Shown here piece after piece: positions 16,614-61,945 of a stretch of 64,000 nucleotides of DNA (position 1 is its first letter; each line of letters begins with the position of its first letter). Source of the DNA: Daucus carota subsp. sativus (taxonomy: Eukaryota; Streptophyta; Magnoliopsida; Apiales; Apiaceae); assembly GCF_001625215.2 (NCBI RefSeq), contig NC_030383.2, positions 61,122,949 through 61,186,948 on the forward strand, written 5' to 3'. The position numbers and the translations under genes were made by a program. Below the pieces are notes generated by a model. That model saw nothing but the letters and a program-made list of their open reading frames with translations. It was not told where the DNA came from and did no database searches.

Positions 16614-17001
16614 GAGCATCTCCAACCATAAAGATCCCTTAGCAAAAAATTTAATTGTCATACAAAAATAAAAAAAAAAAAATTATAGATAATGGCTTCA
16701 AAAATTCACGCTCCAATCATCCCACTTGTTATCTATAATTATAACCAACCTCTAATGGATGACTATATTTGTCGATCCACTACAGATATGTAAGAAATCT
16801 GTAGGAAAATTAAACATCACTTATTATCATATTAAAATGATATAGTCTATTTATAACAATCCAAAATATTAATAACATACTATTTTTAAATTATAGCCAA
16901 TACCATCGAAGCAAAATGTCTTACAAGTTCAGCAAATTTTACATAATGTCTTACATGTCCAATTTAGCTAACGATTATAGCCAACGCCGTTGGAGATGCT
17001 C
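16614..17001. mobile_element. PIF/Harbinger-type MITE (family GAGCATCTCCAAC), copy 1
   Basis: A 388-bp element with terminal inverted repeats GAGCATCTCCAAC / GTTGGAGATGCTC. TTA follows the right end, and the left TTA is changed to TTT. The sister copy at 25865-26255 sits at the same site, so it inserted before the segmental duplication. Same family as the nest at 39791-40958. Subterminal TAGCCAACG motifs and no coding capacity. Confidence 0.85.
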
Positions 17002-25864: not shown

Positions 25865-26255
25865 GAGCATCTCCAACCATAAAAACCCCTTCGCTAAAAT
25901 CTTAATTTTCATACCAAAAATTAAAATTATAGCTAATGGCTTCAAAAATTCACACTCCAATCATCCCACCTGTTATCTATAATTATAGCCAACCTGCTAT
26001 GAATGACTATATTTGTCGATCCACTACAGGTTTGTAAGAAATCTGTAGGAAGATTACACATCACTCATTATCATATTAAAATGATATATTCTATTTATAA
26101 CAATCCAAAATATTAATAACATACTAGTTTTAAATTATAGCCAACCAATATAGTCAATACCATCGAAGCAAAATCTTACAGGTTGAGCAAATTTTACATA
26201 TGTTTTACAGGTCCAATTTAGCTAACGATTATAGCCACCGCCGTTGGAGATACTC
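25865..26255. mobile_element. PIF/Harbinger-type MITE (family GAGCATCTCCAAC), copy 2
   Basis: Orthologous by position to 16614-17001. Left TTA is intact and the right flank is TAA, with ends GAGCATCTCCAAC and GTTGGAGATACTC (one change). The flanking DNA downstream of the mTERF pseudogene is the same in both copies. Confidence 0.85.
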
Positions 26256-27776
26256 TAACTCTTTCATAATCTTTTTCTTTTTCATTTATAATTTATGTTT
26301 CAAATCATTAAAAAATAAAAATAATGTGTAAATTATTTTTTTAAATAAAAAATTATTTTAGTTTCTATAAACTAAAAAAATGATATGATTTGTACATTAA
26401 TTTATAAAAAATAATGAAAATTTTAAATAAAAATTGACTCTTTTGAAATTATATAACCTAGAAAAAGTTCAGATATAAAAATAATTATATAAATTTTTAT
26501 TTTTTTTCCGGATCAAAACCAATCAGATAAAATAATTCATTATCAAATCATTTGTCTGTATCTTTTTCTGAATTACATTTCCTTTGTATGTTTGTTTAGA
26601 GCCTAGTTTTACCCGATCTTCAGAGTTTAGACCGCAGCTCTGGGGCAGCAACAATATACGACAAGCAAGGTCCTGGTTATGTTTTACTTAAATTTCATTT
26701 CTCTTGTATGTTATTCTTACCTAATAAAATAATTTTGGTTATCCCAGCAAGTTGCAATCTCAATCTATGTTCCTTCGTTGCAAGAAAGCCTGGACTTAAT
26801 TACATGCTTTATCACGGGGAAGTGGCTGAGCATAGCATAACAGACAACCATGCTTCTCATTGTATATCTCTTTTCATCGATATGGATTATTTTGTAATTT
26901 GCTCCCTAATCATTTGTTCTTGGTCTCTAACAGAATAATATTGAGTTGACTTGACTAGTACACATGTCATTGTATATTTCTTGACATCGATTTGGATTTA
27001 TTTTATTACTTTCTCATCACTTGTTTTAGGCGTTTAGCCCATCTTTAACGGGATAACATTGACTTGACTACTATACATCTCATTACATATTTAGTAGATA
27101 TTTCAAAAATTACAGATATATTGAGGATTATTTTCACAAATCGATCAACACAAAAATATACATATTCAACAAATATGAGTTAATATTTATATATAAATTA
27201 AAAATATTATTAACCTAATAAATAAATAATATATTTAATAATAAAATATAAATAAAAGAATGAAAGCAGTTGATATAATAGCTAGAGGAGCTGCTCTGAC
27301 CGGAACACAGTTGTAGTTCAGTTTAGAAGGATTTTAGGGAGAACCCCTGGTCATTTAACCCAACTGACTTAGTATTATTAATTTCTTCAATGTAATATGA
27401 TATATCATATAAGTGACTGATCATATAAAATTAATAATTTTTGACCGTAAATCTAAATTAAGTATACCGTCGCTAGTTATTTTATCATGATAATAATATT
27501 GTGGTTTATGACTACCTTATACTAGCTTATAACCCGTGCAATGCACGGGCGGTTAACATATTTATTATTTTATTGTATATATTTTAAATTTATCTAATTT
27601 TATTGTAAAAATAAAATTATGATAAAATAATGTGATTAAATAGATATTTTATTTAACAATGGGATAAATTCTTCACAGTTAAGTCTGTCAAATGGCTAAT
27701 TAAAAAATTAGGTCGAACATATATATATTTTAATGAAAATGTTAAAATTTACCTTTTAACATGTTAGAGCATCTCC

Positions 27777-28514
27777 AAGAGCCTTTTTGTTGGCTCCTAA
27801 ATATAATATAAAAAATGTGGCTCTTAGTACAAAGTTAAGAGTGTAAACTCCAACAATACTCTCTACATCTCTTATCTATTTCATATTTTATTCATATATT
27901 GGGCTCCACTATAACAAAAGAGAGGGAAAGATGGAGGTTGATTGGAGGGAAGGATTTTTTTATTGTGAAAAAATAAGTTAGGAGCCATGTGGTGGCTCTT
28001 AACTTTGAGGAGAGAGGAGAGAGAAACAAGAGGCTCTTAATATTTAAGAGCCACTTAAGAGTCTCTTGGAGCAACATTTTGGTTCTCCCTCCTCAAATCT
28101 CAAGTTAGGAGCCTAAATGAATAGCCCTCTTGGAGATCTCCAAGAGGCTATTCATTTAGGCTCCTAACTTGAGATTTGAGGAGGGAGAGGAAAAATGTTG
28201 CTCCAAGAGACTCTTAAGTGGCTCTTAAATCACTAAGAGGCTCTTGTTTCTCTCTCCTCTCTCCTCAAAGTTAAGAGCCACCACATGGCTCCTAACTTAT
28301 TTTTTCACAATAAAAAAATCCTTTCCTCCAATTCACCTCCATCTTTTCCTCTCTTTTGTTATAGTGGAGCCCAATATATGAATAAAATATGAAATAGAGA
28401 AGAGATGTAGAGAGTATTGTTGGAGTTTACACTCTTAACTTTGTCCTAAATTACTAAGAGCCACATTTTTTGTATTATATTTAGGAGCCAACAAGGAGGC
28501 TCTTGGAGATGCTC
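27777..28514. mobile_element. Near-perfect palindromic MITE (Harbinger-type ends)
   Basis: A 738-bp element flanked by TTA on both sides (27774-27776 and 28515-28517), with ends GAGCATCTCCAAGAG and its complement. The two halves are inverted copies of each other across almost the whole length, meeting at TCTTGGAGATCTCCAAGA near 28137. For example GGCTCCTAACTTGAGATTTG right of the centre matches CAAATCTCAAGTTAGGAGCC left of it. A transcript would fold into a hairpin of about 370 bp. No coding capacity. It sits inside the Helitron 27522-29979. Confidence 0.88.
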
Positions 28515-39755: not shown

Positions 39756-39787
39756 ATGGCATCAACATCAGGGAAACCTTTAACACC
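39756..39787 (+). pseudogene. Orphaned start of the F-box copy 3 coding region
   Basis: Reads MASTSGKPLTP, matching the MAATSGKAKTP start of the intact F-box gene at 44382. The frame is cut exactly where the MITE nest 39791-40958 inserted. It resumes beyond the nest as CGACGATCAAAAATCAGCC, as in the 44382 gene. The insertion therefore lies within coding sequence. Confidence 0.75.
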
Positions 39788-40137
39788 TTGGAGCATCTCC
39801 AACCATACATAGCCCTTGGCTAAAAAATGAGTTAGACATTCCAAAATTAAAAAATATAGCCAACGTCATGAAAAAATAGCACTCCAACTACGTGAACCTG
39901 TTGTCTATAATTTTAGCCAACCTCTTATGGATGGCTAAATTTGTCGAACCTCTACAGGTCTGTAAGAAATCTGTAGGAAGATTGCACATCATTTATTACT
40001 ATATTAAACTGATATATTCTATTTTAACAATCTAAAATATTAATAACATACTATTTTTAAATTATAGCCAACCAATATAGCCAATACCATTGAAGCAAAA
40101 TGTATTACAGGTTCAGCAAATTTTACATAATGTCTTA

Positions 40138-40907
40138 GAGCATCTCCAACGGCATTGGTTATAATCGTTGGCTAAATAGGATCTGTAAGAGCATCTCCAA
40201 CGGCGTTGGCTATAATCGTTGGCTAAATTGGACCTGTAAGACATTATGTAAAATTTGCTGAACCTGTAGGACATTTTGCTTCAATGGTACTGGCTATATT
40301 GGCTGGCTATAATTTAAAAATAGTATGTTATTAATATTTTAAATTATTAAAATAGAATATATTAGTTCAATATGGTAATAAATGATGTACAATCTTCCTA
40401 CAGATTTTCTTACAGACCTGTAGAGGTTCGACAAATTTAGCCATCCATAGGAGGTTGGCTAAATTTATAGATAACAGCTGATCATGGTTGGAGTTCAGTT
40501 TTTGAAGCTGTTGGCTATATCTTTTTATTTTAAGTATGCCAACTCATTTTTTAGCCAAGGGGTTTAGATGGTTGGAGATGCTCTAAGACATTATGTAAAA
40601 TTTGCTGAACCTGTAAGACATTTTGCTTCAATGGTATTGGCTATATTGGTTGGCTATAATTTAAAAAGAGTATGTTATTAATATTTTAGTTGTTATAAAT
40701 AGAATATATCAGTTTAATATGGTAATAAATGATGTGTAATCATCCTACAGAATTCTTACATTAGCCATCCATAGGAGGTTGGCTAAATTTATAGACAACA
40801 GGTCACTATGGTTGGAGTGTGAAATTTTGAAGTGGTTGGCTAAATTTTTTATTTTTGGTATGATTATTCACTTTTTAGCTAAGGGGTCTCCATGGTTGGA
40901 GATGCTC
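40138..40907. mobile_element. Middle MITE of the nest
   Basis: Same family and ends. TTA precedes (40135-40137) and follows (40908-40910) it. The interrupted outer sequence (AATGTCTTACAGGTCC) is restored across it and matches the intact relative at about 16942-16958. Minus the inner element it is about 372 bp. Confidence 0.9.
40189..40583. mobile_element. Inner MITE of the nest
   Basis: A 395-bp member of the same family, flanked by TAA on both sides (40186-40188 and 40584-40586). The middle element's sequence (GATCTGTAAGACATTATG) is interrupted at exactly this point. Youngest insertion of the three. Confidence 0.9.
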
Positions 40908-41049
40908 TTACAGGTCCAATTTAGCCAACGATTATAGCCAACACCGTTGGAGATGCTCTTATACGCGACGATCAAAAATCAGCCAAATTGTTCACAACCA
41001 GGCGGCTGCAGCAAAATCATCAGATCATCAGCCGAGAAAGAAGACGAGG

Positions 41050-42266
41050 ATGGGAGAGCGAAAGAATGCGACACTGCCGGAAGATTTAATCCAATCAGAA
41101 ATACTCCCTCGAATACCAGCAAAATACATTCTTCGATGTCGCCTGGTTTGTAAGTCCTGGAACTCTGTTTTCTCCACACCTGCTTTCGTAAATTCCCACC
41201 TCACTTATCAACTCCACAACAACTCTGAAGAAAATGATCGGATTATAGTAAAGCGTTATGGGTTTAACGAGGAAGTGGACATTCTCTCCCTCACCGATTC
41301 AATTCGTGTTCCTAAAGTGCCTTGCGCTATTGACACCTTGTTCGGTTCAATTAATGGTTTAATTGCAATGGCTTCTACACGGGGAAAAAAATTTTGTTTG
41401 TGGAACCCGGCTCTCGGGCAAGTTAAGTTGTTTGATTTCCCCCCACTTGATGGTCACTATGCCGGCGGATTCTGTTGGGATCATGTGCACAACGATTACA
41501 AGGTCTTGATGTTCTGCCACAGCATCTCTTCGCGGCTTAGACAAATTTGTATTTACTCAACAAATTCGGCTACTTGGGCTTCGTTGGGCATCCCTCAAAA
41601 TCTCGTGTTGCCAGGATTTATGCGGTGGACGTCACCAGGTCCATCTACCATTGTGAATGGAACGCCTTACTGGAGTTATCCTAAATCCTTGACTTTGCCC
41701 GGAGAGATTCGTAAACGTCAGTTCTTCTCTACGTTCAAGTTTGTGCCTGAAATCATGAGTTCAGGCTCCTTCCTGATTTAGATTCGCTCAATTGTCGTGG
41801 AAACAATTTCAACTTAGCCAACATTAAGGATCGTCTTGTTGGGATGACATATAAATTAAAAGAACGTAGAGAAAATAATACTATGGTGGATATGTATTAT
41901 TTGGACGACGAGGAATCTAGTAGTGGTGTTTGGAGTAAGATGTACAGTATCGGACCCGTATTCTTGGACTCCACTCAATGGCTGTCAAAGGCTTTTAGGA
42001 ATGGTGGTGAAATACTGATCCTGGGACATTTTGGCCCGTGTGGTTTCTATGATCCCAAAACCAAAGAAATTAAGAGTATTGCCGGGACGGCCGGGACGAC
42101 TAGCACTTTCTTAAGAGAGTTGGATAGACACTGTTACAGTTATATGCCTAGTTTGGTCCTTGTTAGAGGAATGGAGTCCATGCAGAATTTTTCTACATAT
42201 GGAGTACTCAAGCAACTCCGGTTTGGCCCACTTACTCCCGGAGTGTCCGGAAAATCGAACTCGTGA
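41050..42266 (+). pseudogene. F-box/FBA gene copy 3, broken
   Basis: Paralog of the neighbouring F-box genes: F-box at MGERKNATLPEDLIQSEILP ... VCKSWNSVFS, then LWNPALGQVKLFDFPPLD and FCWDHVHNDYKVLMFC. A one-base loss near 41755 (AAATCATGAGTT where relatives have AAATCAATGAGTT) ends the first frame at 41781 after 243 codons from this ATG. The second frame, from about 41780, continues the FBA domain (VDMYYLDDEESSSGVWSKMY, GMESMQNFSTYGVL) to a stop at 42266. Its last 18 codons run into an inserted SINE-like element. The original start lies at 39756, split off by the MITE nest. With three separate lesions it is a pseudogene, though a truncated F-box-only peptide could still be made from 41050. 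Confidence 0.88.
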
Positions 42267-44381: not shown

Positions 44382-45611
44382 ATGGCAGCGACATCAGGCA
44401 AAGCTAAAACACCTTATGAGCGACGATCAAAAATCAGCCAAATTGTTTGCAACCAGGCGGCTGCAGCAGAATCATCAGATCATCAGAAGAGGATGAGAGA
44501 GCGAAAGAATGCGACGACACTGCCAGAAGATTTAATCCTTGCAGAAATACTCCCTCGAATACCAGCAAAATACATTCTTCGATGTCGCCTGGTTTGTAAG
44601 TCCTGGAACTCTGTTTTCTCCACACCCGCTTTCGTAAATTCCCACCTCACTCATCAACTCCACAACTCCGAAGAAAATGATCGTATCATAATAAAGCGTT
44701 ATGGGTTTAACGAGCAAGTGGACATTCTCTCCCTCACCAATTCAATTCGTGTTCCTAAAGTGCCTTGCGCTTGTGACAAATTGTGTGGGTCAATTAATGG
44801 TTTAGTTTTAATCGTTTCTACACCGAGACGAAGATTTTGTTTATGGAACCCGGCTATCGGGCAAGTTAGGTTGTTTGATTTCCCCCCACTTGATGTTCAC
44901 TATGCCGGATTTTGTTGGGATCATGTGCAGAACGATTACAAGGTCTTGATGTTCTGCCATGCCATCTCTAGACAAATTTTTATTTACTCAACAAATTCTG
45001 CCACGTGGACTTCGTTGCCAGGATTTATGCTGTGGATGTCACCAGGTCCCTCTACCATTGTGAAGGGCACGCCTTACTGGAGTTATCCTATATCCTTGAC
45101 TTTGCCCGGAGAGAAACTTAAACGTAAGTTCTTCTCTACGTTCAAGTTTGTACCTGAAATCAATGAGTTCAGGATCCTTCCTGATTTAGATTCGCTCAAA
45201 TGCCGTGGAAACAATTTCAATATAGCCAACATCAGGGATCGTCTTGTTGGGATGGCGTATAAATTAGTAAATCGTGGAGAGAGTAATACTATGGTGGATA
45301 TGTATAGTTTGGACGACGAGGAATCTAGTAGCGGTGTTTGGAGTAAGATGTACAGTATTGGACCCGTATGCTTGGACTCCACTCAATGGCTGTCACAGGC
45401 TTTTAGGAATGGTGGTGAGATATTGATCCGGGGAGATTCTGGCCCGTGTGCTTTCTATGATCCCAAAACCAAGGAAATTAAGAGTATTGCTGGGACGACT
45501 AGCACTTTCTTAAGAGAGTTTGGTGGACGGTGTTACAGTTATATGCCTAGTTTGGTCCGTGTTCGAGGAATGGAGTCCATGCAGAATTTTTCTACAAATG
45601 GTGTTTCATAG
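44382..45611 (+). CDS. F-box protein with FBA domain, copy 4
   Basis: Intronless 409-residue protein. F-box at about residues 44-88 (TTLPEDLILAEILPRIPAKY ... VCKSWNSVFS). The FBA region includes LWNPAIGQVRLFDFPPLD, FCWDHVQNDYKVLMFC and FKFVPEINEFRILPDLDSLK. The upstream ATG at 44382 is preferred over the internal one at 44493, because the extension (MAATSGKAKTP ... QIVCNQAAAAESSDHQ) is matched by the orphaned start at 39756 and by open, conserved codons upstream of 37690 and 41050. The C-terminus ends early in FSTNGVS: the coding sequence joins the shared flank block (TTTCATAGC) where paralogs read GELKEF. The domain core is complete, so it may function. Predicted SCF adaptor, unknown target. 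Confidence 0.9.
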   Translation: MAATSGKAKTPYERRSKISQIVCNQAAAAESSDHQKRMRERKNATTLPEDLILAEILPRIPAKYILRCRLVCKSWNSVFSTPAFVNSHLTHQLHNSEENDRIIIKRYGFNEQVDILSLTNSIRVPKVPCACDKLCGSINGLVLIVSTPRRRFCLWNPAIGQVRLFDFPPLDVHYAGFCWDHVQNDYKVLMFCHAISRQIFIYSTNSATWTSLPGFMLWMSPGPSTIVKGTPYWSYPISLTLPGEKLKRKFFSTFKFVPEINEFRILPDLDSLKCRGNNFNIANIRDRLVGMAYKLVNRGESNTMVDMYSLDDEESSSGVWSKMYSIGPVCLDSTQWLSQAFRNGGEILIRGDSGPCAFYDPKTKEIKSIAGTTSTFLREFGGRCYSYMPSLVRVRGMESMQNFSTNGVS

Positions 45612-60785: not shown

Positions 60786-61736
60786 GGAGAGGGCATGGTT
60801 ATGCTAATAAATTGTTGAGGTTGATGTTGATAAATACATGTATGGACCTTATAAGTCTATCTTTGATAATGACAAGTTGACATGGAATCACAAATCAAAT
60901 ATCTATCTGCAAAAGTATCTTCATGGTAAGTTTGCACATCTCAAGTAGTGAAATGGCCCGAATCGCCTCAGGAATTTCCGGCTTTTCCATTAACTTATCA
61001 GACGCCTAGGCAAATTCGATGCTACAACGACCTAGATCCAAATTTTCAACCCACGCACTCCACATAAAATTAAGACTTTTCCCACTTACATAAGCCTAAA
61101 TGATGATTACACCGAGATGAAAAGCAAGCGAGTAGCAAGTTAAGGTCAGTTTGGTAATACGAGTACATAGATTTTTGTAATGGCTCGTGTTGTAGGTATA
61201 GCATCAACTGTGGTGGAGAAATGTTTATCCAAATGGTTAGCTTTTTCTTTATGATTAGTACAAGATGCGCATATAGTTGAGTTCAATAAAACACCGAAAG
61301 GCTTAATCCCAGTGACGAGGAAAGTGAGAATTTGGATAACAGATAAAGAAGATATAACTTAATCACATGCCACTTGTTGACGCCAAGAATTCAGATGCAT
61401 CGACAAGCCTGCCCTACCACCACATTCCGCATTCCTATTTTCTACGTGCCACTGCAGCATTAACAATGTGCGCAATCAGTCGTATAATGTTAATATTCCT
61501 TTCCTGGGCTGATTCCATATTGTGCGAAATATGCACTTTCTGGCATCATTCTGTCGGTCACCAAGTTGGAAAGCTGCAATTTGTGCGTGGCATTCCTACC
61601 TGTTTCGTTTAAATTATAATACGTCTGTCGTGTTTATGCAGCCAGTACTGTTCCAAGTATCTCATTCTGAAACAAACTTTTTCTCGAGTGTAGAAATTTA
61701 GATGTTCACACACACGATTCGTCTAAGAGCATCTTG

Positions 61737-61945
61737 GGTTGACTAAAATTGGTTGGTTGTGCTTCGATGGAGCCTGCCGAGATTCAACAAATATAGTCAA
61801 TATCAGGAGGTTGGCTGTATTTATAGACAAGAGGAATATATCATTGGAGTTGAATTTTTTTTTTTTTTACATAATCTCTATATTTTTTATTTATAGTATA
61901 TATTAATGATTTTTAGTTGTGGGTTCTAGATGGTTGGAGATGCTT
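61737..61945. mobile_element. Degraded GAGCATC-type MITE
   Basis: Left end TAA-GAGCATCTTGGGTT, right end GGTTGGAGATGCTTT, with the subterminal words GGAGGTTGGCTG and ATTTATAGACAA known from the copies at 16614 and 39791. At about 209 bp it is internally shortened. It is an older member of the family. Confidence 0.65.

Follow-up and report, generated by a model that had tools for sequence, protein, structure and literature searches.

A three-deep nest of one Tourist-like MITE family at a carrot F-box gene copy, and the sites of self-insertion across the genome

The window (64,000 nt of the carrot genome, C3:61122949-61186948) contains, close to the beginning of one copy of an F-box gene, three nested members of one Tourist/PIF-Harbinger-like family of miniature inverted-repeat transposable elements (MITEs) of approximately 395 bp (Table 1). 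The outer element entered at the TTA at the end of codon 11 and, as an earlier note on this DNA had claimed, split MASTSGKPLTP (ATG 39756) from the rest of the gene; the F-box domain lies entirely downstream of the nest, where an in-frame ATG occurs at 41050. The F-box paralog at 44382 carries no insertion and retains the intact site to which the same note had pointed (CACCTTATGAG). When the two flanks of the nest were joined and aligned with the paralog, 1132 of 1255 positions were identical, and the copy adjoining the nest had one base less than the paralog near 41760 (41751-41781), which causes a frameshift. At the insertion site the paralog reads ACACCTTATGAGCGACG; thus, the outer element originally entered a TTA, and its left target-site duplication (TSD) later changed to TTG.

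Table 1. Positions of the nest, its target-site duplications, the F-box copies and the single family members in the window.
Feature	Position	Strand	Remarks
Outer MITE	39791..40958	-	395 bp without the middle element; orientation opposite to inner
Middle MITE	40138..40907	+	372 bp without the inner element
Inner MITE	40189..40583	+	395 bp, complete
Outer left TSD	39788..39790	.	TTG, originally TTA
Outer right TSD	40959..40961	.	TTA
Middle left TSD	40135..40137	.	TTA = outer element position 49-51
Middle right TSD	40908..40910	.	TTA
Inner left TSD	40186..40188	.	TAA = middle element position 49-51
Inner right TSD	40584..40586	.	TAA
F-box copy, first 11 codons (MASTSGKPLTP; ATG 39756)	39756..39788	+	cut off by the outer element
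Rest of the F-box frame 3' of the nest	41050..41778	+	F-box domain, then frameshift near 41760
F-box paralog, open frame	44382..45608	+	uninterrupted insertion site CACCTTATGAG
Single family member	25865..26255	-	end-to-end alignment
Single family member	16614..17001	-	end-to-end alignment

The 13-bp sequence GAGCATCTCCAAC forms the terminal inverted repeat at both ends of the element. Six of these ends were found at 39791-40958, three facing inward on each side, and the coordinates of the three-deep nest, its TSDs (TTG/TTA, TTA/TTA and TAA/TAA) and the order of insertion, which is given by the topology and the TSDs, were all as the earlier note had described them. The window as a whole contained 14 matches to GAGCATCTCCAAC with at most two mismatches, compared with a mean of 0.88 and a largest value of 3 in 100 shuffles. 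After subtraction of each nested insert and one TSD copy, the outer, middle and inner elements aligned over their full length, both among themselves and with the two single copies (25865-26255 and 16614-17001); the alignment of the three showed a deletion of approximately 22 bp and small indels in the middle element. Pairwise substitutions among the three ranged from 9.4 to 10.5%. Distances from a 37-copy consensus were 4.1% for the inner, 8.1% for the outer and 9.4% for the middle element, which makes the inner element the youngest and does not place the middle and outer elements in nesting order. We also observed what the earlier note had not described: the middle and the inner element both inserted at TAA 49-51 of the element, between ACCTGTAA and GACATT, and did so in opposite relative orientations (outer -, middle +, inner +). 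Each copy in the nest has 28-30 TWA sites, so that a repeated hit would occur by chance in approximately 1 of 28 cases.

Family elements in the window carry the 3-bp TTA/TAA target duplications of Tourist-like MITEs. All 27 single insertions in one TSD set had matching TTA or TAA; locus L024 (TAA/TTA) had been left out of that set beforehand because its TSD was unequal. Among other insertions, a minority had TCA or mutated TSDs, TCA taking the place of TTA/TAA at L057, L064, L108 and L110. The single copies at 16614 and 25865 share the right flank ctctttcataat and therefore probably represent one insertion that was duplicated together with a surrounding repeated gene segment. Another type of element occupies 27767-28514; it has GAGCATCTCCAAG ends and TTA/TTA flanks, and its body of approximately 748 bp reads as a long foldback. 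A diverged short relative of approximately 219 bp (start GAGCATCTTGGGT, end AAGCATCTCCAAC, flanks TAA/TGA) lies at 61727-61945.

In the genome searched (441,086,747 bases, 11 contigs), exact ends were found 1449 times on the forward and 1406 times on the reverse strand, compared with 4 and 0 times for the reversed-pattern control. The resulting 2855 exact ends, an upper figure for this family given that the end is also found in other families, together with the length of approximately 395 bp, represent the small size and high copy number typical of MITEs. The genome-wide scan for nested members that the earlier note had proposed was performed for two same-strand ends 14-205 bp apart, in six offset ranges (offsets of 45-50 bp fell outside them); with both strands searched, each of the 28 TWA sites of the consensus could be read from one end or the other. 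This yielded 64 end pairs (6 at offsets 14-44, 32 at 51-81, 8 at 82-112, 7 at 113-143, 6 at 144-174 and 5 at 175-205) and no pair in any range for the reversed pattern. The 64 include the window's own two, and L049 and L050 represent one duplicated locus. A family host was assigned automatically by alignment (threshold, 0.45) for 55 of the 64; nine of the 58 pairs at offsets 51-205 were below the threshold (L059, L079, L082, L083, L109, L114, L115, L120 and L121).

The 55 family-in-family junctions were concentrated at three positions of the element: 17 at site 49, 10 at site 79 and 6 at site 222. The remaining junctions were distributed over site 56 (3), sites 97 and 376 (2 each) and 15 positions hit once each. 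Thus, 33 of 55 junctions fell at 3 of 28 TWA sites (binomial, P of at least 33 under equal use, 1e-18), and an earlier test without offsets 14-44 gave a similar result (32 of 49 at 3 of 24 sites, P = 9e-18). Duplicated or nested host ends led us to move four loci (L059, L109, L107 and L113) to site 49 by hand; the automatic labels were retained for the tests.

The consensus contains the sequence ACCTGTAAGACATT twice, and these two copies define sites 49 and 79; site 222 has TCTTACAG in common with them. In total, TCTTACAG occurs three times, with its TTA on the reverse strand for sites 49 and 79 and on the forward strand for site 222. The target consensus of PIF is CWCTTAGWG, which the hot word matches at 7 of 9 positions. 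Target preference was modeled on outside insertions, that is, those whose TTA/TAA TSDs match and which lack family sequence within 60 bp on either side. The loci examined provided 54 of these, 52 with distinct contexts, and some of the 52 lie at loci that had been selected because they contain nests. Across the 52 sites the preference extended beyond the TSD: the bases beside TTA departed from background (p = 1e-6 and 1e-8), C being most favored before and G after, and all other tested positions gave p of 0.06 or more. The outside model ranked sites 79, 49 and 222 first to third among the 28 TWA sites of the element; relative to the TTA sites in the window, their scores were at the 98.9-99.8 percentile. 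The model attributed 72% of nests to these three sites, compared with 60% observed. Sites ranked fourth to eighth received no hits in the automatic count, site 56 was ranked 19th yet had 3 hits, and TCTTACAG itself was absent from all 52 outside insertion sites. The preference of the family for its own TWA sites, which the earlier note had suggested from the window, was therefore borne out genome-wide, and the results support a preference for the target word rather than for any TWA.

The amount of self-insertion was much higher than sequence preference predicts. For approximately 1430 elements, approximately 0.9 nests were expected by random insertion and approximately 1.5 by the target model, so that the 55 seen represent an approximately 35-fold excess over the latter and sequence preference alone does not explain them. 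Expectation and detection both scale with copy number squared; hence, we infer that decayed ends affect this excess little. The rest of it could result from open gene-rich chromatin, from tolerated insertion in neutral DNA or from tethering. Under tethering, transposase that occupies the subterminal repeats (TTGGCTA/TAGCCAA) of copies already in place would steer insertion to nearby sites and target sequence would be secondary, which we consider possible but unlikely as the main cause. It is favored by the size of the excess over the target model, by the position of two of the three hot sites near the left end of the element and by the number of motifs in the nest (5 in the inner, 5 in the middle and 7 in the outer element, compared with approximately 0.04 in single-base shuffles); the two single window copies have only 2 motifs each. 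Against it, site 222 is also hot although it lies in the middle of the element, the TWA sites 56, 61 and 122 nearer the left end had 3, 1 and 0 hits, and it was a model built outside the family that put the hot three first.

Repeated use of one site could also reflect descent instead of target choice, if a single composite arose once and then spread as a unit. A composite that retains its outer ends and TSDs might in principle move, and some nests do sit as a unit inside a further family copy (L064 and L077). The flank comparison, which left out the six loci of offsets 14-44, detected family sequence in the upstream flanks of 14 of 58 nests (offsets 51-205), because these nests are located within or next to additional family copies; several of the 14 matched in register, as would be expected either from same-site composites or from separate hits at one hot site. 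Outside family sequence, however, the only in-register match was L049/L050, the duplicated locus, of which uninterrupted versions exist at L016 and L045. Inner elements of the nests examined in detail differed by a median of 9% and were found in both orientations and in three different words, and the two nested insertions in the window have opposite relative orientations. Considering flanks and orientations, we regard a spreading composite as very improbable. Deeper nests were also found beyond the window (L058, L064, L075/L084, L077/L118 and L113). In L113 (C9:34417956), both insertions were at site 51, as in the window, and the flanks were unrelated to those of the window; despite these unrelated flanks, both nests have TTG as the left and TTA as the right outer TSD. 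L109 has the same site-51-within-site-51 architecture in decayed form, and L011 contains two copies with one TAA between them inside site 51 of a third copy.

An origin of the inner parts by tandem duplication, template switching or gene conversion, without transposition, would be compatible with the similarity of the elements, with inverted arms lying close together (I1, 190 nt, 94%) and with the chain at L114, in which single TTAs lie between the copies, but it is extremely improbable given that the element ends are exact and bordered on each side by 3-bp duplications, that the inner element lacks the deletion of the middle element, and that the inner element is no closer to the middle (10.5% substitutions) than to the outer one (9.4%). 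Matching TTA or TAA flanked the inner element in 20 of the 24 nests examined in detail at sites 49 and 79, which is at odds with the tandem duplication lacking target duplications that the earlier note had set against insertion; the four misses were L052, whose right end had been placed incorrectly, and three loci in which one copy differs (L059, L067 and L075). The chain in L114 (1694-3206) comprises approximately four family copies with TTA between them, the first junction being imperfect, and looks as if each copy had entered the target duplication of its predecessor.

The nest very probably arose by three successive insertions of a MITE with 3-bp TSDs and an extended target preference into an element that itself carries three good targets. 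This reading builds on direct observations, namely the structure, the TSDs, the uninterrupted site, the genome-wide hot sites and the ranking by the outside model. The family would be non-autonomous and would move by cut-and-paste with a 3-bp TSD, the transposase and its superfamily being putative. The first insertion would have been into a TTA within the 5' coding sequence of the F-box gene copy; the second would have entered TAA 49-51 of the first element, and the third the same TAA 49-51, now of the second element. Site 49-51 would recur because the putative transposase prefers a C/G-flanked TTA and the consensus holds TCTTACAG three times; with three good target words in the element, each copy may serve as a landing pad for the next. 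That the three best-fitting target words, two of which lie in a 30-bp direct repeat near one end, have been kept as self-landing pads is a further idea that we regard as quite unlikely. If so, new copies would be diverted into old copies instead of genes, further nesting would follow, and the approximately 35-fold excess would reflect either selection for a sink or tethering by resident copies.

Since the middle element is antiparallel to the outer one, a transcript of the nest could fold into a long hairpin. Predicted folding of the 1168-nt nest gave -588.8 kcal/mol, compared with -259.8 (sd 6.9) in 20 shuffles and -252.5 kcal/mol when the middle and inner elements were reversed. Antiparallel nesting may thus place long potential hairpins beside genes. 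The hairpin of the window nest might give rise to small RNAs or silence the F-box cluster. The approximately 1400 copies estimated from exact ends and the 55 self-insertion junctions provide a test bed for target choice, safe haven and tethering.

Literature searches with GAGCATCTCCAA, GAGCATCTC and CWCTTAGWG returned nothing on this MITE family by title or abstract start, and searches on nested or self-inserting MITEs returned related work only, none matching. Krak/DcMaster is a Tourist-like MITE group of carrot, like the present family, and Krak has 333 copies according to the available parts of the reports (PMC8227079, PMC2213677 and PMC3224100), compared with the 2855 exact ends counted here, a total to which other families having this end contribute. 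Identity with this group was considered and rejected: the Master-type terminal motif, given as G(N)5GTT in the part of PMC2213677 available, is absent, GAGCATCTCCAAC having CTC at positions 7-9; Krak was compared by its description only. For carrot, a 2021 survey lists, in the sections available, 81 Tourist families, of which the largest has 1353 copies (PMC8227079). The DcSto elements of carrot resemble the present family in MITE-in-MITE nesting and in alternative insertions at exactly one position; they differ in being Stowaway elements with a TA TSD, and, as far as the accessible text of that report extends, a three-deep same-site nest is found only on our side (PMC3695323). Maize PIF and rice mPing, for which 9-bp target preferences are described in the excerpt available, share with the carrot family the 3-bp TSD and a preference beyond it (PMC2836001), although only the two bases beside TTA were significant in our 52 sites. 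MITEs of maize and rice are reported to insert commonly into members of their own family (Jiang and Wessler 2001, as cited in the available part of PMC3695323), which is what the carrot family does as well. Because self-inserting MITEs were already known, the window nest represents a well-resolved new example. What is added is a quantified link between self-insertion and target preference within one family, which turns an anecdotal nested MITE into a case in which a preference measured elsewhere ranks the self-insertion sites first: in the carrot family, unlike the maize and rice examples as far as they are cited in that part of PMC3695323, the preferred internal words were located genome-wide and compared with outside insertions.
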